A stretch of DNA of 64,000 nucleotides, taken from Cellvibrio sp. PSBB023 (GTDB lineage Bacteria > Pseudomonadota > Gammaproteobacteria > Pseudomonadales > Cellvibrionaceae). Each line of letters opens with the position of its first letter. The first letter of the stretch is position 1. Under the pieces are notes generated by a model that did no database searches, was not told the DNA's origin, and was given only the letters and a program-made list of their open reading frames with translations. The stretch covers positions 372,001 through 436,000 of the forward strand of contig NZ_CP019799.1 in the NCBI RefSeq assembly GCF_002007605.1, in the 5' to 3' direction. This document shows, in pieces, positions 52,512 through 64,000 of the stretch. The position numbers and the translations under genes are program-made.

Positions 52512-55367
52512 TTACAGCGCGCTGATTTTTTGAATCTGCTCGCGTAATTTTTCTACTGCGATTTTGTTTTCTGCAACGCGGTTGCGCTCGTTTGCAACTA
52601 CTTCTGCCGGTGCCTTTTCCACAAACGCCGCATTGCTCAATTTTGCTTCTGTACGCTCTATATCCTGGACCAATTTATTGCTCTCTTTGGTCAGGCGGGC
52701 GATTTCAGCATCTTTATCAATGAGGCCTGCCATAGGCACCAGTATTTCCATTTGACCTACCAGCGCGGTAGCAGACATTGGTTCCGAGTCTCCTGGGTTA
52801 AGCCAGGTGACACTTTCCAGCGAAGCTAACTTTTTCAGGAACTGCTGATTGTTATGCAGGCGCTGTTGGTCTTCGCTGGTGCCATTTTTAATCAGCACTG
52901 GTAAATCTTTGGCGGGTGATATGTTCATTTCACCGCGAATATTGCGCACGCCTAAAATCACGGATTGTAACCATTCAACATCATTCAATGCCTGTTGGTC
53001 GATTTTACTATCGTCCGCTTGCGGGTAGGGGGCGTGCATAATGAAGTCGCCTGTAACACCTGCGAGAGGTTTTATTTTTTGCCAAATTTCTTCAGTGATA
53101 AATGGCATCAAGGGATGTGCTAAACGCAGAATGGTTTCCAGTACGCGAATCAGGGTGCGACGAGTCCCTTTCTTTTGCGCTGCTGTTGCATCGGCATTCC
53201 AGAGAACGGGTTTGGATAATTCCAAATACCAATCGCAGTATTCGTTCCACACGAATTCATAAATGGCTTGCGATGCCAAATCCAGGCGATAGGTATCCAG
53301 GTATTCTGCTGCAGATTTTTCCGCCTGCTGTAATTTGCTAACAATCCAGCGGTCAGCAACGGAGAGTTCAAAATCAGTGGCGCCATCCTGGCCGCAATCC
53401 TGCTCATCGCAATGCATCAATACATAGCGGGTAGCATTCCAGATTTTGTTACAGAAGTTGCGATATCCTTCTACTCGGCCCATATCAAACTTGATATCGC
53501 GACCGGTTGAGGCTAGCGAGCAGAATGTGAAGCGCAGTGCATCTGTTCCGTAGGCTTGAATGCCTTCAGGAAATTCTTTGCGAGTTTGCTTTTCAATTTT
53601 TGCTGCATCTTTTGGATTCATTAGCCCGGTGGTGCGTTTTTGCACCAGGGTTTCCAAATCAATACCATCAATAATGTCCAGTGGGTCGAGCACATTGCCT
53701 TTGGATTTCGACATTTTTTGGCCTTGGCCATCGCGCACCAAGCCGTGTACATAAACTGTTTTAAACGGGATCTGTGGTGTGCCGTCTTCATGTTTCACCA
53801 AGTGCATGGTGAGCATAATCATACGTGCAACCCAGAAGAAAATAATATCGAAGCCGGTGACTAACAAATCAGTCGGATGGAATTTTTTCAAAAATTCCGT
53901 TTGCTCAGGCCAACCGAGTGTTGAGAAAGTCCACAGGCCGGAGCTAAACCATGTGTCTAATACGTCCTCGTCCTGATTTAAGCTAATATCGGCGGCGAGA
54001 TTGTATTTGCTGCGCACTTCAGCTTCATTGCGGCCGACATAGACCTTGCCGCTTGCGTCATACCAGGCGGGGATGCGGTGCCCCCACCACAGTTGACGAC
54101 TGATACACCAATCCTGAATGTCGCGCATCCAGGAGAAGTACATATTTTCATATTGTTTGGGCACAAATTGAATGCGCCCATCTTCTACAGCGGCAATCGC
54201 TGGCTCGGCTAAAGGCTTGGTGCTTACATACCATTGATCAGTGAGCCATGGCTCAATAACAACGCCCGAGCGATCACCGCGAGGTACTTTCAAACCATGA
54301 TCGTCAATTTTTTCCAGCAACTCCGCTGCTTCAAATGCGGCAACAATTTGCTTGCGCGCTTCGTAGCGGTCAAGGTTGGCAAATTGTGCGGGTAGGGTTG
54401 CCTCTAATTCTGTATTGACGCTGCCATCCAGATTAAAAATTTGTGCAACCGCCAATACTGCAGCGTTTTTATCGAGCACATTAATCAGTGGCAAATTGTG
54501 ACGCTTGCCGACTTCGTAGTCATTGAAATCATGCGCCGGGGTAATTTTTACACAGCCGGTACCAAAGTCACGATCAACATAATCATCGGCAATGATTGGA
54601 ATCAAGCGATTAACCAGTGGCAGTAATACAAATTTACCAATTAGCGATTTGTAACGTTCATCTTCCGGATGCACTGCGACAGCACTGTCGCCCAGCATGG
54701 TTTCGGGGCGTGTAGTGGCCACAACCAGATAGTTCTGGCCGTCTGCTGTTGTTGCGCCATCTGCAAGCGGGTAGCGCAGGTTCCAGAGTGAGCCTTTTTC
54801 ATCGTGGTTTTCTACTTCCAGATCGGAAATGGCGGTGTGCAATTTAGGATCCCAGTTGACCAGGCGCTTACCGCGATAGATCAGTCCATCATCAAACAGA
54901 CGAACAAATGCTTCTTGCACCGCCTTGGATAAGCCATCGTCCATAGTGAAACGCTCGCGGCTCCAGTCTACTGATGATCCCAAGCGGCGGATTTGGCGGG
55001 TGATAGTGCCGCCGGATTGTTCTTTCCACTCCCAGACTTTTTCGAGGAACTGTTCGCGGCCCAGATCATGGCGGCTTACACCTTGTGCAGCCAGTTGACG
55101 TTCGACCACCATTTGCGTAGCAATCCCGGCATGGTCGGTGCCAACTTGCCATAAGGTGTCGTCACCTTTCATGCGGCGATAGCGGATTAATGCATCCATG
55201 ACCGCATTATTAAAACCATGGCCCATGTGCAGGCTGCCCGTGACGTTTGGTGGCGGGATCATAATGCAGTAAGGATTGCCTTCGCCGGCTGGTTTAAAGC
55301 AGCCTTTTTCTTCCCAGGTTTGATACCACTGGCGTTCAATAGCATGGGGTTCGTAGGTTTTTTCCAT
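52512..55367 (-). CDS. valS: Valyl-tRNA synthetase
   Basis: A class I synthetase. The ATG at 55367 gives 951 residues, the same as E. coli ValRS; an open frame continues upstream to 55595 but that extension overlaps the divergent gene and has no family resemblance. The catalytic motifs are H-M-G-H in '[18 protein letters not shown]' and K-M-S-K-S in '[14 protein letters not shown]'. The C-terminal coiled coil ('[19 protein letters not shown]') is present. It is monocistronic, and its promoter lies in the 187-nt gap shared with the Stealth gene. Confidence 0.97.
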
Positions 55368-55554
55368 AGCGATGATTGGCTCTCTCGGTCTGTCGCTGAC
55401 GTATAGCATGCCAGCTGAATGGCTAAAAAATTGCTTGTGATTATAGCCGTTTAGGCTATTAAGTCCCACAAAATCGCGGTTTATTTGGCGGAAATGAAAG
55501 GTTGGTGCGGTGTAATATGGTGGAGAGAATTCCAAGTGTTGTATGGAGAAAATT

Positions 55555-56565
55555 ATGGCAGGTCTAATGGATTGTGAGCCAATTGATGCCGTCATTTTAT
55601 GGGTTGATGGTGCAGATCCTGAGCATGCAGCAAAGCTAAATCGCTACCTTCAATCAATAGGTGGTGTGCGACCTGCCGCTGCCGATAAAACGCGCTTTCA
55701 CAATGCGGGTGAAATCGATTATTGCGTTACTTCCTTGCTGAAATTTGCACCATGGTTGCGCACTATTTACATAGTCACTGACAATCAGCGCCCATTGTTA
55801 ATGGATAAAATTGAAGGAAGTGTATTTGCTCAAAAAGTTCAGGTTGTCGATCACTCCGTCATCTTTTCCGGTTACGAGGACTGTTTGCCTAGTTTCAATA
55901 GTATGGCAATCAGTAGTCTCTTGTGGCGAATTCCCGGTTTGGCAGAGCAGTTCCTATATCTCAATGATGACTTTGTTCTCATTAGGCCTGTTGCTCCCGA
56001 TGATTTCTTCAGTGATGGTAAGGTTGTTTTGCGCGGACGATGGAAGTTGCTGGACTCAGTTATTCCGGGGAATCGTTTAGTTAAAACGATACGCAAGCTG
56101 TTCAGTGCAAGGCAGAAAAAGAGTCGTGTTAGCTTTTGGGGCTTGCAGCAACAGTGCGCTGAGTTGTTGGGATATAGATGGTGTTATTTTCGGCTCCCCC
56201 ATGTCCCTCACGCATGGAGGCGGTCCAGCTGGGAGCAGATATTTGCACAATTCCCTGAAGCAATGTTGAAAAATATTAATTCCCGGTTGCGCAGTGGGGA
56301 TCAGTATGTTCCAGAGGGGGTGTCGGCACATTATCATGTGATACATGAGCTTGCTGTGACTCAATCGGTCTGCACTAATTTACAACTAAAGCCATCTATT
56401 CAGTCCCTGTGGCGGATCAAAACCAAATTACACAGTACCGAGTGCAATGAGCGCGTCGTTTTTGCTTGTGTGCAGAATATTGAAACAGCGAGCCTGAAAA
56501 AGCAACAGCTTATTTTTGCGTGGCTGGATCAGCGAGTGGGTCGGCTGGAAGATTTGCTGACATAA
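55555..56565 (+). CDS. Stealth-family sugar-phosphate transferase
   Basis: A 336-residue protein of the Stealth family, which transfers hexose-1-phosphate units to build phosphodiester-linked capsules or exopolysaccharides (for example CpsY, SacB and GlcNAc-phosphotransferase relatives). CR1 is '[15 protein letters not shown]', CR2 is '[22 protein letters not shown]' through '[30 protein letters not shown]', and CR3/CR4-like segments follow ('PHVPHAWRR' and '[13 protein letters not shown]'). The ATG at 55555 has GGAGA 6 nt upstream; the ATG at 55543 lies before that ribosome site and is less likely. No signal peptide. Confidence 0.9.
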
Positions 56566-56872: not shown

Positions 56873-57949
56873 ATGAAAGTGCTTTTTATAAAGCAATATC
56901 TTGATCGATCAGAATTGGATCTGGTGCTGCGTCTACATTCTATGGGAGTCTATATCCGCGTATTAAGTAGCAGTACAACAATGGGTAAAGCGCAGCTTAT
57001 GGACGCAGGCATTTATATTGAATCCCGGCGCTACAAAAGCAAGATTGCTCCCGGTTTCATATGGCAGGTTCGTCAGTTATTAAATCAGTATAAGTTCGAT
57101 ATTATTCATTCAACCGATGGGAAAGGATTAGCCAACGCTATTTGGGCATCTTATTTCAAAACCGTAAAAATTATTGGTTACCGCGGCACCTTAGCCAAAG
57201 TTAGGCCTACAGATCCGAGTTATTGGCTTGGTCTTTTAAATCCGAAAGTCGATCATGTAGTGTGCGTTAACCGTTCGATTTATGACTATATGCACAAGTT
57301 TTATCCGGCGGAAAAGTTAACGCTAAATTACAAAGGATATAGTTTGGCCTGGGCAGAAGAGGCGGCTAATGAACAAGTTGAACCTATGGTATTTCCGCCT
57401 GGTGCTTTTGTTGTGGGTTATATTGCTACTACCTATGGGCGTCCACATAAGGGATTAGGTGTATTGGTGCAGGCTATGCATTTGTTAAAAAATCCCAACA
57501 TACACTTATTATTTGTCGGCAGTTACGATAATGAGGTAAAAACCCTGGCAACCCAAGGGGCAGCGGGGGACAGAATACATTTTATTGGCCCTCGTAAAAC
57601 AGGAGCCAGTTATTTGCGTTATATTGATGCTTTTGTCTTGCCTTCTCTGAGGGATGGATTGCCCAGAGCAGTGAAAGAAGCTATGGCTCAAGCAGTACCC
57701 ATCATTACGACTAATATCACTGGTCCAACAGAACTGGTTATCCACGAAGAATCCGGTCTTTGGGTCGAACCTGATAATCCCGCTGCGATTGCCCAGGCAA
57801 TTACTCGCCTTTATGAATCACCGGCACTGTGCAAGCAATTGGGTGATGCAGGGCGGCAGCGGTTGATCGATCATTTTTCTGCTGAAAGCTTTGTTGCAAA
57901 AACCTATGCGCTTTATCAGCGCATGGCTGTAGATTCCCCTAATAAATAA
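56873..57949 (+). CDS. GT4-family glycosyltransferase
   Basis: A 358-residue GT-B fold enzyme. The N-terminal domain starts 'MKVLFIKQYLDRSELDLVLRLHSMGV', and the C-terminal nucleotide-sugar domain shows 'VGYIATTYGRPHKGLGVLVQAM', 'VLPSLRDGLPRAVKEAMAQAVPIITT' and 'GPTELVIHEESGLWVEPDNP'. The D-G-L-P-R-x-x-x-E-A pattern takes the place of the EX7E retaining motif. GGAG lies 6-7 nt before the ATG. Its last 34 nt overlap the 3' end of the convergent kinase-glycosidase fusion gene. Donor and acceptor unknown; context suggests a surface glycan. Confidence 0.9.
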   Translation: MKVLFIKQYLDRSELDLVLRLHSMGVYIRVLSSSTTMGKAQLMDAGIYIESRRYKSKIAPGFIWQVRQLLNQYKFDIIHSTDGKGLANAIWASYFKTVKIIGYRGTLAKVRPTDPSYWLGLLNPKVDHVVCVNRSIYDYMHKFYPAEKLTLNYKGYSLAWAEEAANEQVEPMVFPPGAFVVGYIATTYGRPHKGLGVLVQAMHLLKNPNIHLLFVGSYDNEVKTLATQGAAGDRIHFIGPRKTGASYLRYIDAFVLPSLRDGLPRAVKEAMAQAVPIITTNITGPTELVIHEESGLWVEPDNPAAIAQAITRLYESPALCKQLGDAGRQRLIDHFSAESFVAKTYALYQRMAVDSPNK

Positions 57950-60105
57950 ATCGGTGCACCAGAAATAGAAGCTGCTGTTAATTCCTTGCCATCGCGGTCA
58001 ATAATTTTTTCATAATTAATGCTGGCAGGAATAACACTTGTATTGTTGTCCGATCTCCAAGCTACGATAATTTTCCTTTCTTCAGCATCAAACTCCAGTG
58101 CATAGACATTGCTTTCTGTGTCGAGCTTACGCACAAATCTAGCCGTACCAATGAGTCGTAACAGTTGTGCCAATGCATAAAATGCTGTGCGTGGCATGAA
58201 GTTATTGCGATCATCAACCAGCCCATAACCATGCGCTGACAGGCGCCACCAAAATACTTGTTCGATATGCCCTGAGCACAGGGTAATTAAATAATAACGC
58301 AGCATGTAATTAGCATAGTCATCATCATTTTCGCCCGGTTCATCGCGACGCCATTTCGGTGTCTCATAAGGGCAACCAATCGGCGACCAGATTCCTGCGT
58401 GTTTTACCGGCCAATTCACTTCCGATACGATGACTTTATCTGAACAGCGGTCTGACCATTGGGCCAAGGCTTTTAATAACGCTGATTTTTCCAGCGTTGA
58501 AAATTGACGCCCTTGGGTAGCCTCGGGCGCACCGCGTCTGTCGACATAGAGTAGGTGTGAGAGCGCGGCCAAGGGCTGTGTTTTGGGATGTGTATCCAAG
58601 GCGGCAATAACCGGTAAATATTCAAAATCAATGCACGCTGGACCAACGAGGCGAATGTGTGGAAAACGTTGTTGTAATTCCAGTGCTGGCACCATTAATT
58701 GTCGATATTCATCACTGCTCCAAATCCCCCATTTCAAACGATTGCTGGCATGGGTAATTTCGATGTGTGCAACCTGATCGCCAAGGCTTTCGATAATTAA
58801 TGTTAAAAATTGCTTCCATGAATCTGGTTGTAATAGAGCCTGCCGGTCTTGTAGTACGGCAAGCATAACCTCCAGGCCCTTACTGCGAAGTTGCTTCACG
58901 AGTGCAATAGTTCGATTCCATTCTGTTGCTGTTTCATGGTGACAAAAGCGAATAAGTACAGGTGGGTTACCCAGTTGCTCAAGCAGTTGCAGTTCGGTTT
59001 CTGTGTAATCAGGGTGAGGGTGTAATGCAATACCTATGCGCCCTTTCATTTCAATAGGGGTGGTATAGCTTTGTGTTAAAAGTTGCTGATAGCGTCGATA
59101 AATGCCCGGTGCAGCACACACACCTTGCCACACCATTGAAAATAGATAGCGCCACTTGCGATAAGCATGTTTTTCCTGGCGACTGGGCACAATCATAGGT
59201 TGGGCTGATTTTTCATCCCACAGCCATATATCCTGAATGGGGGGATAAACAGGCTTGCTAGCGGCGCGCTTTTTATTTTTCCAATGACGTATAGGGTGGC
59301 GCCATTTGACGCTGCGTCTATGCCCCCAAAAGCGTTTTCGTGCTTTCTGCTCCAGACTCTCAAAATCCGCTGGAAAATCCTGATGATTGTTGTAGATAGT
59401 TTTAAATATTTTTAAATAGGCGCCGGGTAGCGCAATGCGCGCCAAATCAAATGCACGCTGTTTAATTGTGAGCGGTTCACTTGAATATTTAGCCCTGTTT
59501 AAATCAATAAATTGTGGCTGAAGCCATGCTCCGGTTTCGCTGCGCGGCAGTAATATATTTTGATTGCCCATGTCACCATGCATAAAGCCTGCGTCGTGCA
59601 TGGCACGAATCGCCGGTGCGACAATATGAAGTAAGTCGATTAGTGGTGCATTGTTTCTTTGATTGTAGTAAATATCTGACAGTGCATCGCGGAAACTGGT
59701 GCCGGGTTCAAATATGCAGAGATAATAACTTTCCATTAAGCGCGTGCCATCCCAGCGCTCTAACCACGCAATGGGAACTGGCGTATTAATTCCGTTGTCT
59801 TGCAGGAAGCGCGCTGCATGGAATGAGCGCTCGGCTTTGGATTTATTTTTATGGTCGTATTTATCTTTCCACCAGGATTGCGGCTTAAAAACTTTAATGG
59901 CAACGGCGATCTCCCCCTGGTCGGCTATCAATGGATATTTCACTACATAGTCGCCGCCATTAGAGAGTTTTACTGCCTTCTCTGAGCAGCATAGATCTTT
60001 CAATGCTGCCAATTGGTCAATAACCACATGCTGATTAAAACGGTTGCTAATTAGGCCTGTAAAACCGGTTATTGCAAGGGTGGAATAGCCTAATGTATTA
60101 CTCAT
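57916..60105 (-). CDS. Fusion of WaaP/InaA-like sugar kinase and TIM-barrel glycosidase-like domain
   Basis: A 729-residue protein whose two halves look unrelated. Residues about 40-270 form a Kdo/heptose-kinase-like (InaA/WaaP) domain: Lys71 in 'VAIKVF', the catalytic loop H176-G-D178-M-G-N-Q-N183, and Asp201 in 'FIDLNRA' as the metal ligand. A basic linker (about 260-350) leads to a (beta/alpha)8-like domain (about 355-650). Its 'HIEITHASN' (Glu449) and 'VIVSEVNWP' (Glu562) sit where clan GH-A glycosidases keep acid/base and nucleophile. No signal peptide or membrane helix. The ATG at 60105 follows the upstream GT4 stop by 9 nt; a GTG at 60114 is also possible. Function inferred only: phosphorylation and trimming or modelling of a surface sugar. 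Confidence 0.78.
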   Translation of the reverse strand: MSNTLGYSTLAITGFTGLISNRFNQHVVIDQLAALKDLCCSEKAVKLSNGGDYVVKYPLIADQGEIAVAIKVFKPQSWWKDKYDHKNKSKAERSFHAARFLQDNGINTPVPIAWLERWDGTRLMESYYLCIFEPGTSFRDALSDIYYNQRNNAPLIDLLHIVAPAIRAMHDAGFMHGDMGNQNILLPRSETGAWLQPQFIDLNRAKYSSEPLTIKQRAFDLARIALPGAYLKIFKTIYNNHQDFPADFESLEQKARKRFWGHRRSVKWRHPIRHWKNKKRAASKPVYPPIQDIWLWDEKSAQPMIVPSRQEKHAYRKWRYLFSMVWQGVCAAPGIYRRYQQLLTQSYTTPIEMKGRIGIALHPHPDYTETELQLLEQLGNPPVLIRFCHHETATEWNRTIALVKQLRSKGLEVMLAVLQDRQALLQPDSWKQFLTLIIESLGDQVAHIEITHASNRLKWGIWSSDEYRQLMVPALELQQRFPHIRLVGPACIDFEYLPVIAALDTHPKTQPLAALSHLLYVDRRGAPEATQGRQFSTLEKSALLKALAQWSDRCSDKVIVSEVNWPVKHAGIWSPIGCPYETPKWRRDEPGENDDDYANYMLRYYLITLCSGHIEQVFWWRLSAHGYGLVDDRNNFMPRTAFYALAQLLRLIGTARFVRKLDTESNVYALEFDAEERKIIVAWRSDNNTSVIPASINYEKIIDRDGKELTAASISGAPIYLLGESTAMR

Positions 60106-60114
60106 AATAACCAC

Positions 60115-61200
60115 TCAAACGGTTGCCGAATTTATGTTGCCTGCCAGATGCTGATATAAATTCACATAGGCATGAATATTTCGTTCCAGCGTAAAGCTGG
60201 TTGCGTAGTTCTTCATATCTTCCTGCTTTTGTTGATCTTGTTGCATCAGCGGCAAGTGTTCGTGCAGGGTTTTACTAAGGTAATCTGTTTCAAAGTTATC
60301 CCATATAAATGCATAGCCACCACTGACTTCTGGCAAGCTGGTCATATTCGACGTGAATACCGGTGTGCCAAATTGCATGGCTTCCAATATGGGTAGTCCA
60401 AATCCTTCGAACAGCGATGGAAATAAAAAGGCCTCCGCGTGTTGATAAAGCCAGATTTTTTCTGCGGCGGTGATAGGGCCGACCAAGGCCACATTGGTTA
60501 AGTTCAGTTGCTTGATACGTGCTTCAAGCTCATGGGCATAATCAAGGTGGTCTTTGTTGCCGCATATATACAATTGATATTCTGGAAATTTCTGCATCAT
60601 ATCAACTAACACATGGAAATTTTTCTTGCGGCGCATTGCCCCCAAAGCAAAGAAAAAGGGTTTATCTTGTGTATGAAATGCGGGTTTCCGAGCCTCTTTT
60701 CCCTGTAGGTTTTCTACTGCGTTGTAAATCACTTCCAGCGGCTTGTTTTTAATATCAAGATGGTTGCGAATGTCATTGGCAACAAACTCGGAAATAGCAA
60801 CTAATGCATCAGCTCTATCGATTCTGCGCTGCATTTTACGTAAATGCTTTTGGGCTTTAGTCGGGCGCTTTTCGTAAAGAAAGTTTAAATCATGGATGGT
60901 AATAACCTGTTTGGTGTTGGCTGTCTTTCGGAAGTAGCGAAAGTGCTGGTAACTGGAATGCCAAACATCGGCAACAGGTAAGCTGGCTGATACATAGCGT
61001 TGCCATTTTTTCACGGGTGTAAAAATGGCGTTGCTGGCTGGTAACGTTGTGGGTGTTTTGTATCCCTTGGGAACCAAAAAGTTGAATTCAACAGACGGGT
61101 GGTTGTGTGCTTGCAAGCCACTGACCAGTGACTTGGTGACATTCCCTATGCCAGTGGTTTCACGGTTGATAAGGGTAGCATCGACTACAATTTTCAACAT
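60115..61200 (-). CDS. GT4-family glycosyltransferase
   Basis: A 361-residue GT-B retaining enzyme: 'VVDATLINRETTGIGNVTKSLV' at the N-terminus, 'VITIHDLNFLYEKRP' and 'ADALVAISEFVANDI' in the acceptor domain, then 'FFFALGAMRRKKNFHVLVDMM' and the EX7E segment 'FPSLFEGFGLPILEAMQFG' in the donor domain. It resembles mannosyl/rhamnosyltransferases. It lies between the CDP-glycerol-transferase-like gene (10-nt gap) and the kinase-glycosidase fusion (9-nt gap), so all three are one operon. Confidence 0.93.
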   Translation of the reverse strand: MLKIVVDATLINRETTGIGNVTKSLVSGLQAHNHPSVEFNFLVPKGYKTPTTLPASNAIFTPVKKWQRYVSASLPVADVWHSSYQHFRYFRKTANTKQVITIHDLNFLYEKRPTKAQKHLRKMQRRIDRADALVAISEFVANDIRNHLDIKNKPLEVIYNAVENLQGKEARKPAFHTQDKPFFFALGAMRRKKNFHVLVDMMQKFPEYQLYICGNKDHLDYAHELEARIKQLNLTNVALVGPITAAEKIWLYQHAEAFLFPSLFEGFGLPILEAMQFGTPVFTSNMTSLPEVSGGYAFIWDNFETDYLSKTLHEHLPLMQQDQQKQEDMKNYATSFTLERNIHAYVNLYQHLAGNINSATV

Positions 61201-61210
61201 TATTTACAAC

Positions 61211-62242
61211 CTATTTCCAATAGTTCATTTGACGGCGTAGTTTGAATTTTCGCCACAGATTTAAGGGTTTGCTCTTGGGATTTTTCCCGCCGTTTTCAAT
61301 AAAGCGATCAATTGCTTCAAGAATGCGTAGTGCGGACTTTCCATCGCGTGCAGGGTGGATAGAACCACCAAAGCTTTCGATTGAATCCATTAACGCTTTG
61401 GGGCGAGATAAGGCTTGGCGGATTGCCGGCTCAAAGTCTTCGGGCTTGTCGATGTCGATTAGTTGTGGCCCCGGGCGGCGATTTTTGAAGGTGACGACAG
61501 GTTTGCGTGTTAGCAAAAATTCGCTCAGGGCAGAGGATGTGTCTGAACACATTACGTCGGCATCGGTAAATAGCTCAAGGATGTTATCTGCCTCGGAAAA
61601 CTGGAGGTTTTCATTTTCCAGTGCTTTGAATTTGTTGCGTGTTTCGGCATTTGTTTTGGGGTGTAGTGTTACTACCCATTTCCATTCGCCTGTTTGGCTC
61701 AAGCGTTTTACTTCCGGGTACAGAATTTCTGCAGCACTCCAGGAAGGCGAGAAGGTGGAGTGGTAGAGAATAGTTGGCGGTTGCTTTACTGGCGCTACAT
61801 TGGCTGGCAGTTGAGTAAAAAAATAATCCAGCTTTGGCCAGCCTGTTTCTTCAACATGGAAATGTTGTAATTTTTTGGCCAGCGCCACAAATTGTTCGGT
61901 GTCTTTCGGCCCGGTAGTGCAGTACAAATCAAAAAAACCACGGATATAAATGTGCCGTGGTTTGCCAGCGTCAAAACCATGGAAGGTTTGTACTTTTACG
62001 CCAGGAAAAAAGTGCGGAACAATATTGTTTGGGGTAATGACCGCAATAGGGTTCCAGTTATTCACTTCTTCTACGCTGGTTAATAATATGTCATCACTTT
62101 GCAAATCTTCCGCGCCGGGGCCATTGAAAAACCAGGCTACCTTATCGCCGCGCGCTTTAATTGCCGCATCAATAGGACGCATGATGGCTTGGGTATAACG
62201 CTCTGAACCATAGAATAAATAGTGTTTGCTCTTCATATACAT
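61211..62242 (-). CDS. CDP-glycerol:glycerophosphotransferase-like protein
   Basis: A 343-residue protein resembling the TagB/TagF CDP-glycerol glycerophosphotransferase family, which adds glycerol-phosphate to wall teichoic acids and, in Gram-negatives, decorates surface glycans. The family segments are 'TFHGFDAGKPRHIY', 'WPKLDYFF', 'ILYHSTFSPSWSA', 'VVTLHPKTNAE' and 'DADVMCSDTSSALSEFLLTRKPVVTF'. Two nearby ATGs (62242 and 62236) are possible starts, with GGAG 4 nt from the first. Nothing shows that the donor is CDP-glycerol rather than another CDP-polyol. Confidence 0.85.
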   Translation of the reverse strand: MYMKSKHYLFYGSERYTQAIMRPIDAAIKARGDKVAWFFNGPGAEDLQSDDILLTSVEEVNNWNPIAVITPNNIVPHFFPGVKVQTFHGFDAGKPRHIYIRGFFDLYCTTGPKDTEQFVALAKKLQHFHVEETGWPKLDYFFTQLPANVAPVKQPPTILYHSTFSPSWSAAEILYPEVKRLSQTGEWKWVVTLHPKTNAETRNKFKALENENLQFSEADNILELFTDADVMCSDTSSALSEFLLTRKPVVTFKNRRPGPQLIDIDKPEDFEPAIRQALSRPKALMDSIESFGGSIHPARDGKSALRILEAIDRFIENGGKNPKSKPLNLWRKFKLRRQMNYWK

Positions 62243-62282: not shown

Positions 62283-63998
62283 TTATTTGCTTTTGAGAAA
62301 GCGCGACATTCTTTCAATGTTGTCGGTCAGTATCTGTGGTGGCAATTGCAGGTGATCGACCGGTTTGTAGTTTTGATCCACTGCATCTATGTCGCCCAAT
62401 GGGTTGATTAGGAACAGGTGGTTATCATACAGCATTGCCCTGTCTGACCAGGATTCCATCAGCAGCCCACGATTATTGTCTGGTAACGCAAACAACGAAT
62501 AGCCGGTTGAATAGTCGGCTACAGGGTTTGAGCAGCCAAAGGCTTCGCTGAGTAGCGTAGGTATAAGATCCTCGTGGGAGCTCAGTGTATCGGTGATTGT
62601 TGCTTCGCGCCCTGGCCAGAGTAGCATTAACGGAACCTTGGTTTGCCACAGGCTGAAATTACTGTTGTGACCCCAAAAGTTTTTACCGGTTTCATTAAAC
62701 TCTTGGCCATGATCGCTGGTGATGATGACAAGGGTGTTATCCAACAGTTCTTGTTGTGCGAGTTGATCCATAATTTGTTGAATCAAGCTATCAACATAGT
62801 GAGCGGTAGTTTTGTACAAATTTAAAAAGGGTACAGGATCTGAATTTTTGTTGAGTTTAAGGTAATTAACCTGTTCCAGCATGGGTTCAAAACGATGGGG
62901 ATAATTCTCAGGCAGTGAGAAACCGTGCGGCGCGTCAAAAAACAGAAAACCAAAAAAAGGTTTTTCTGGCGAGCGCTGCTGCAGGTCTGCGATGAAACGC
63001 TGGGCGATATCCAGATCATTATCGGCACTGGTTTTAGCATTGCCTTGCTGTAGCTCCTGGCGCAAGCGCGAGAAAATAGTGCGGTCAAATTCAGGGAAGG
63101 TGAGTGTACTGCTGCCATAAATAAAGTGTTGGTAGTTGTGTTGTGCGGTGATGTCGAACAACAGGCTGCCTTGTTCGGCGGCCAACATGGGCTTCCAGTA
63201 ACTACCGGAAAGGCCATACATCATACTGAACAGACCGTAGCGCGTTGCATTGCTGCTACTGTAGTGATTGTCAAAGACTTGTGATTTTGCACGCAGTTGG
63301 AAACTGTGTGGCATTACTTCGGTAGTCAGTTGATCGGCCCGTAGTGAGTCGACGACTAACATCAGAATGTTTAATGGTTTTTGCGTATCACACTGCAAGG
63401 GGTTGCGAGGGTAGTTCAGCCCTTTCATCGCGTCGGGAAGGGTTTGGCCTTCAGCTTTTTGTACTACCTCAAAACCCATTTTCTCCAGCGATGAGCGCAT
63501 GGTGGTGGTTGGCATCCAGGGAATATAGCGGTTTTGTGCCGTCACTGTGTTCCAGCCAAATGCATCTGCACAGCCATTGAATAATTGCAATCCAATGTAG
63601 GCGCTCAAGAATAACCCGCTCATCTGGCGATTGGTTAGCTTGTGGGTATTGGATAATTTGCGGCTCAGGGCGAGCAGAATAAGTTGTCCGGCAATCGCTA
63701 TTAATAATACTGCACCAATGGACAGCCACATCACCCAGGAAAAGGCGATATTCTCCAGAAGGGCGCCGCTTAATACGAGGTTGACTACCATGCCGTTTAA
63801 ATGGAAGTGGTACAGGCTAAAGACTTTTACGTTAGTGATAATAATTAATTGCGCAATCACAAACAGCACTGTAGCAATTGGGGCGTAGTATTTTTGGATG
63901 CGTAATAAAAAGCCAAGAACAACAATCAAAAATACCAGTAACAACGACAGTACAGAAAAGTGCAGGAACATACCCAGTACAAGGTAAAGCTGGCCGCT
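62283..63998 (-). CDS. Membrane-anchored sulfatase/phosphoglycerol-transferase-superfamily protein (YejM-like), N-terminus cut off
   Basis: The frame is open to the right edge of the window, so the true start lies outside; 572 residues are visible. Hydrophobic segments in the first 140 residues form about five membrane helices, and the rest is a periplasmic alkaline-phosphatase-fold domain. The domain keeps 'ILMLVVDSLRADQL' (metal Asp), 'NATRYGLFSMMYG' (Thr nucleophile position), 'IITSDHGQEFNE' and 'FWGHNS' (metal Asp-His and His). The layout is like YejM/PbgA, but here the metal-binding residues look intact, so it could be an active phosphoethanolamine/phosphoglycerol transferase or a sulfatase. 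It is first of the minus-strand glycan operon. Confidence 0.85.
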   Translation of the reverse strand, partial: SGQLYLVLGMFLHFSVLSLLLVFLIVVLGFLLRIQKYYAPIATVLFVIAQLIIITNVKVFSLYHFHLNGMVVNLVLSGALLENIAFSWVMWLSIGAVLLIAIAGQLILLALSRKLSNTHKLTNRQMSGLFLSAYIGLQLFNGCADAFGWNTVTAQNRYIPWMPTTTMRSSLEKMGFEVVQKAEGQTLPDAMKGLNYPRNPLQCDTQKPLNILMLVVDSLRADQLTTEVMPHSFQLRAKSQVFDNHYSSSNATRYGLFSMMYGLSGSYWKPMLAAEQGSLLFDITAQHNYQHFIYGSSTLTFPEFDRTIFSRLRQELQQGNAKTSADNDLDIAQRFIADLQQRSPEKPFFGFLFFDAPHGFSLPENYPHRFEPMLEQVNYLKLNKNSDPVPFLNLYKTTAHYVDSLIQQIMDQLAQQELLDNTLVIITSDHGQEFNETGKNFWGHNSNFSLWQTKVPLMLLWPGREATITDTLSSHEDLIPTLLSEAFGCSNPVADYSTGYSLFALPDNNRGLLMESWSDRAMLYDNHLFLINPLGDIDAVDQNYKPVDHLQLPPQILTDNIERMSRFLKSK

Positions 63999-64000
63999 GG

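Follow-up and report, generated by a model that had tools for sequence, protein, structure and literature searches.

The window, a 64,000-nucleotide stretch of the Cellvibrio sp. PSBB023 genome (positions 372001-436000 of a single 4.7-Mb contig), encodes a 729-residue protein that joins a WaaP-type kinase to a barrel predicted to have the GH39/PslG fold. The same partnership recurred in other bacteria in the kinase-barrel order (type A), in the reversed order (type B) and as separate neighbouring genes. The kinase half retains its catalytic residues, and the barrel half, as judged from alignments and the structure model, appears to fail the GH39 catalytic test. In our judgement there is about an even chance that the protein is a two-domain enzyme of surface-glycan assembly, acting at the cytoplasmic face, whose GH39-descended barrel binds the glycan that the kinase phosphorylates. 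The parts are known; their recurrent partnership would be without description in the literature searched, as full-text search, among the hits listed and by their titles and abstract openings, gave no paper that couples a WaaP-type kinase with a glycosidase (most subscription journals lay outside its scope). If the proposal is true, a recurrent two-enzyme module would be added to Gram-negative surface-glycan assembly.

The fusion protein and its kinase half

The fusion gene (57916..60105, minus strand) encodes 729 aa plus a stop codon. By the structure model and homology searches, the chain comprises a WaaP/Kdo-type kinase domain (residues 1–300; 59206..60105, minus strand), a helical linker (residues 301–344; 59074..59205, minus strand), and a GH39/PslG-fold barrel with a beta side domain (residues 345–724; 57934..59073, minus strand). 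The motif WLWDEKSAQP (residues 294–303) straddles the end of the kinase and the start of the linker; it probably belongs to the barrel module, because a counterpart, WDxxSDQP, also opens separate barrel proteins. A frameshift or sequencing join was considered and rejected, the frame being open in relatives of similar length and the structure model being confident throughout. The preliminary description had claimed a single chain uniting kinase and barrel, and the open reading frame, the structure model and the recurrence among relatives confirmed it.

Pfam profile search matched PF06293 at residues 81–222 with 33.9 bits (cut-off 21.3). Foldseek search of the model ranked WaaP (6dfl, E 5.3e-10) ahead of PRPK (E 9.5e-8), and profile search scored PRPK slightly above WaaP; PDB sequence search with the whole profiles returned mainly kinases. 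The ATP-site lysine Lys71 (59893..59895), the catalytic-loop residues Asp178 (59572..59574, in HGDxGNQN) and Asn183 (59557..59559), and Asp201 of IDLNR (59503..59505, the DFG equivalent), all on the minus strand, were each kept in 121/121 close relatives. The WaaP-type kinase with complete catalytic residues that had been read from the sequence was thus borne out.

The kinase is like WaaP (RfaP), the LPS core heptose(I) kinase, in fold (6dfl), catalytic residues and LPS-type gene context. In the available text of the review PMC9138534, however, P. aeruginosa WaaP has just one domain, about 268 residues long, whereas the kinase considered here forms one of the two halves of a chain of 729 residues. 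The NCBIfam equivalog cut-offs of RfaP (15.1 of 170 bits) and KdkA (23.4 of 142 bits) were not reached, and the scores were so far below them that the exact sugar is not readable from the sequence. Bud32/PRPK and RIO kinases share the kinase fold, but the profile scores of this kinase were weak for both Bud32 (18.5 of 125 bits) and RIO1 (13.2 of 22 bits). In databases, relatives are named 'lipopolysaccharide kinase InaA family protein', 'Bud32' (in some cases in full, 'tRNA A-37 threonylcarbamoyl transferase component Bud32') or 'hypothetical'. Search with the PADLOC anti-phage defence profiles gave no clear match: the kinase region weakly matched PD-T4-6, MkoA and mad6 (the lowest E value was 1.2e-3 with P0001 and 4.3e-5 with type B), and a barrel-only protein gave no match at all.

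Natural decay of the kinase was found among type A relatives. Of 200 such proteins of at least 480 aa, 146 kept all four kinase residues; the rest comprised 39 chains without the N-lobe, 2 with an incomplete N-lobe, and 13 of full length in which motifs were changed. After 12 likely gene fragments and P0210 (no start codon) were set apart from the 39, 26 chains remained, which begin at a start codon near residue 136; none has D178, N183 and D201 together. L091 is one such N-lobe-less gene: only 11 bases lie between a preceding O-antigen-ligase-type gene and its start, too few to conceal an N-lobe. The barrel residues A453, D493, E495 and E562 were all kept in 26/26 N-lobe-less chains (27/27 when one possibly fragmentary chain is counted) and in 13/13 motif-changed chains. 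Since the decayed-kinase chains keep these residues, the barrel can apparently function when the kinase is lost and need not be a mere accessory to it, and its survival of kinase decay says that the barrel would have a job of its own.

The barrel and its altered active site

The structure model and Foldseek predicted a (beta/alpha)8 barrel with a beta side domain of the GH39/PslG fold for the C-terminal half, and likewise for type B. This glycosidase-fold match upheld the clan GH-A-type barrel that had been proposed with less assurance than the kinase. Pfam assigned 0 families to the barrel, and PF01229 was matched by 0/16 members at E values up to 10 and by no protein of the same genome. GH39 Pfam search found matches in 1/115 genomes of the order and 8/249 of the phylum; these genomes served only as a source of GH39 comparison sequences. 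When the barrel profile was run against PDB sequences, all matches were weak or due to chance. A GH39 enzyme of Bacteroides cellulosilyticus (5jvk) matched the barrel weakly (E 0.069); unlike the fusion, it has no kinase and carries a canonical NEP motif in the aligned stretch.

GH39 enzymes use two glutamates: that of the NEP motif, where beta4 ends, serves as acid/base, and another, at the end of beta7, as nucleophile. According to the available text of PMC11912335, PslG is a retaining GH39 endo-beta-glucosidase whose gene lies in the biosynthesis cluster of the Psl exopolysaccharide; its acid/base is Glu165 and its nucleophile Glu276. That text describes no kinase fusion, whereas here the barrel is fused to a kinase and has Ala453 at the place of Glu165.

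Type A, B and C barrels were each compared with ten GH39-family sequences by HMM-HMM alignment, the strength of which was modest (E 6e-6, 1e-7 and 3e-7, respectively). The first half of 'FEIWNEP' aligned without gaps to 'IEITHAS' in type A, 'FEIGSTP' or 'FEIGNTP' in type B, and 'F(Q/V)IGNA' in type C. By model and alignment, Glu449 (58759..58761, minus strand), in the middle of strand beta4 (447–450), lies opposite the first Glu of 'FEIWNEP', and so corresponds to the Glu/Gln that opens the GH39 motif (E/Q)xWNEP, not to the acid/base; PslG reads 'WQVWNEPNL', with Gln at this place. The acid/base Glu falls instead opposite Ala453 (58747..58749, minus strand), a position occupied by Ala in 229, Val in 10 and Thr in 1 of 240 barrels, by Thr in 120/120 type B proteins, and by Ala or Thr in 9/9 split or barrel-only proteins. 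A conserved acid/base Glu of the NEP motif was therefore absent from position 453 (0/240; the query and its near copy P0002 are among the 240, as are 40 proteins shorter than 480 aa). A weak alternative register (5jvk, -0.5 bits) puts the acid/base at S464, which likewise has no conserved Glu. These alignments speak against Glu449 as the acid/base.

Glu562 (58420..58422, minus strand), which had been described as well placed, does align with the GH39/PslG nucleophile. It lies in strand 558–564 of the model and was kept in 240/240 barrels and in 9/9 split or barrel-only relatives; in type B the position holds Tyr (101 of 120) or Cys (19 of 120). The HMM-HMM alignment with L103 was two residues off at Glu562, and the nucleophile assignment rests on the PslG motif 'STEWGW', which reads 'VSEVNW' here, together with W565. 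Conservation of both glutamates, also expected earlier, held for Glu562 and in part for Glu449, which was kept in 234/240 barrels but replaced by V, Q or W in 9/9 split or barrel-only proteins.

The pocket around these positions was strongly conserved. In the NRxKW motif (residues 455–459; 58729..58743, minus strand), N, R, K and W were each present in 240/240. In DFE (Asp493-Phe-Glu495; 58621..58629, minus strand), which follows beta5, D was present in 240/240, with E in 238 and D in 2 at the last position; in type B the figures were 120/120 for D and 119/120 for E. The invariant charged pocket consists of N455, R456, K458, W459, D493/E495, D522, R523, R524, E528 and D631; besides NRxKW and DFE, the pocket motifs are DRRGAPE and GLVD.

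On this comparison, the barrel is a putative GH39 fold without the GH39 catalytic pair. It should not be a canonical retaining glycosidase, because the acid/base position holds Ala, Val or Thr and, in type B, the nucleophile position holds Tyr or Cys. Ordinary retaining trimming of a glycan, a role first suggested for the barrel, is unlikely because the acid/base Glu falls opposite Ala453, not Glu449. As the barrel is strongly conserved without its acid/base, the chemistry or binding that replaced hydrolysis is directly testable.

Recurrence and gene neighbourhood

When the fusion was sought in other genomes, as the preliminary description had proposed, it was found in two opposite orders and as split neighbours. 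The reversed order occurred at 13/30 loci examined, and separate adjoining kinase and barrel genes at 3/30; at L090 the two are two genes apart. The kinase tree and the barrel tree agree, within the split clade, in placing L086 next to the fused L088/L089. The kinase was intact in type B (9/9 loci) and type C (4/4 split loci together with L088/L089), and the type B kinases kept K, D, N and D at no less than 98% of 120 proteins. Three barrel-only genes (L092, L093 and L094) encode 348–394 aa and keep E562 and DFE; no kinase gene was found in the stretches fetched around them. Fused in either order, split, with a dead kinase or as a barrel alone, these forms make a natural series in which one can examine which of the halves is responsible for the function. 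A Cellvibrio oddity was rejected, as the fusion was also found in records with Halieaceae, Dasania, Verrucomicrobiota, Kiritimatiellota and Desulfuromonadota-type database names.

In a MAG labelled Lentisphaerae, a 928-residue frame (L006:1271-4057) carries the kinase-barrel pair behind a long N-terminal extension, which overlaps an AIRS-domain frame. L084 and L102, from one genus, gave weak barrel-profile matches in proteins of more than 900 residues with no kinase match.

The same-strand genes upstream of the fusion gene are tightly packed. A GT4 glycosyltransferase gene (60115..61200, minus strand; ORF and Pfam) lies directly upstream after a 9-base gap, followed by genes for a CDP-glycerol:glycerophosphotransferase-like (TagF-like) protein (61211..62242, minus strand; PF04464) and a YejM-like DUF3413 plus sulfatase-fold membrane protein (62283..64000, continuing to 64130, minus strand; Pfam). 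Beyond the window are a GT9 heptosyltransferase gene of the same operon (64153-65199, minus strand) and a DUF6165 gene (65224-65619, minus strand). On the other side, a convergent GT4 glycosyltransferase gene (56873..57949, plus strand) overlaps the 3' end of the fusion gene by 34 bases, and a gene for a Stealth (CR1, CR2) sugar-phosphotransferase-type protein lies at 55543..56565 (plus strand; Pfam). A ValS-like frame (window positions 52512-55595, minus strand) overlaps the start of the Stealth gene as listed; its true start probably lies further in.

The surface-glycan context claimed from the window alone was supported by the GT4, TagF-like, YejM-like and GT9 neighbours and by LPS-type genes elsewhere. 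A constant partnership with Stealth or TagF-like genes did not hold: in Cellvibrio, each was near 7/14 loci, and neither was present at 5/14 (L028-L031 and L033); outside Cellvibrio, 4 loci had one or the other. A sulfatase-fold neighbour (family F4) was near 9/14 Cellvibrio loci.

LPS-type neighbours were counted at 27 non-Cellvibrio loci, with L096 (contig shared with L005) and L084 and L102 (no clear pair) dropped. The fetched stretch held an LPS-type gene at 12/27 loci and none at 15/27; these loci are not independent, several coming from one genus (e.g., L076/L077, L099/L100 and L085/L087). An MsbA-type exporter was present at 7/27 (the NCBIfam MsbA cut-off was passed by 1/5 tested), LptF/LptG at 4/27 (cut-offs passed in L034), a Wzy_C ligase at 4/27, GT9 at 2/27, a lipid A acyltransferase at 3/27, and YrbL at 3/27. 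L083, whose MsbA match was a 706-aa ABC protein at 26% identity, was not counted as positive; with it the count would be 13. As a rough guide, the Cellvibrio genome has 9 MsbA-family matches above 300 bits in 4.7 Mb, or about 3% per 17 kb. YrbL is another kinase-fold family, and its members near distant kinase-barrel fusions lie at L034:12678-13307 and L097:10832-11554 (Pfam) and from L099:12983 onward (BLAST).

Elsewhere in the same genome, beyond the window at about 3.954 Mb (L115:199-2226), a WaaG-like GT4, labelled by eye from the sequence, is combined with a WaaP-type kinase (PF06293, 160 bits) in one frame of 676 aa; directly after this frame comes an MsbA gene with a score over its cut-off. 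Because the genome has this WaaG-like GT4-WaaP kinase fusion beside msbA, the kinase of the window's fusion is predicted to be an additional kinase and not the main core kinase.

Proposed function and alternatives

In the proposed mechanism, the N-terminal kinase would transfer phosphate from ATP to a sugar of a lipid-linked glycan, the acceptor being most likely the LPS core or a core-like glycan. The C-terminal barrel, a putative GH39 descendant that has lost the general acid/base (Ala453) and kept E562 and the charged pocket, would bind the same glycan, for recognition, for presentation to the kinase, or for chemistry without a classical acid/base. The chain is probably cytoplasmic, since the kinase needs ATP. 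The two halves probably act together on the outer-membrane sugar coat, because the pairing recurs in three arrangements, often beside surface-glycan genes. Substrate, location, joint working and the role of the barrel are what we infer here, and several findings count against the proposal: decayed kinases with intact barrel residues, the 15/27 loci without an LPS marker, the 5/14 Cellvibrio loci without Stealth or TagF-like genes, the second WaaP-type kinase, and the loss of the nucleophile in type B.

The conserved E562 and D493/E495 would favour some chemistry in the barrel, and the missing acid/base and the type B pattern would oppose ordinary hydrolysis. A working glycosidase or transglycosidase with a rearranged site is somewhat unlikely. 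It would use E562 as nucleophile with a beta5 acid (E495 or D493), or a leaving group that needs none, such as phosphate, and would trim or transfer sugars on the glycan of the kinase. The conservation of E562, D493 and E495, and their retention with A453 in the 27 N-lobe-less and 13 motif-changed chains, looks like selection on chemistry, and PslG is a precedent for a glucosidase within a biosynthesis cluster; the GH39 acid/base, however, is replaced in 240/240, and type B has lost the nucleophile yet is paired with an intact kinase. It is unlikely that the barrel is a new catalytic type, in which E562 and a rebuilt pocket (NRxKW, DFE, DRRGAPE and GLVD) would act on the lipid-linked core glycan and might split or transfer a glycosyl phosphate that the kinase has produced; the barrel would then be the indispensable half and not the kinase, because dead-kinase lineages keep it intact.

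We consider improbable a reading in which the barrel, as a pseudoglycosidase, serves only for sensing or as a scaffold, and a regulatory kinase signals the condition of the glycan through phosphorylation of a protein. Every type lacks the acid/base, and type B lacks the nucleophile as well, which agrees with this reading, as do the relationship of WaaP-type kinases to protein kinases in profile search and Foldseek and the autophosphorylation of P. aeruginosa WaaP stated in the available text of the review PMC9138534. However, among sugar enzymes the kinase is matched best by the LPS heptose kinase WaaP (6dfl), its neighbours are glycan enzymes, and a sensor would be useless after decay of the kinase, whereas the barrels of decayed chains retain the entire pocket. 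An incidental fusion of two adjoining glycan genes with no joint mechanism is very improbable: neighbouring genes often fuse, and there are decayed kinases as well as genes for a barrel alone, but two opposite orders, split neighbours in a third clade and congruent subtrees there would be hard to obtain by chance.
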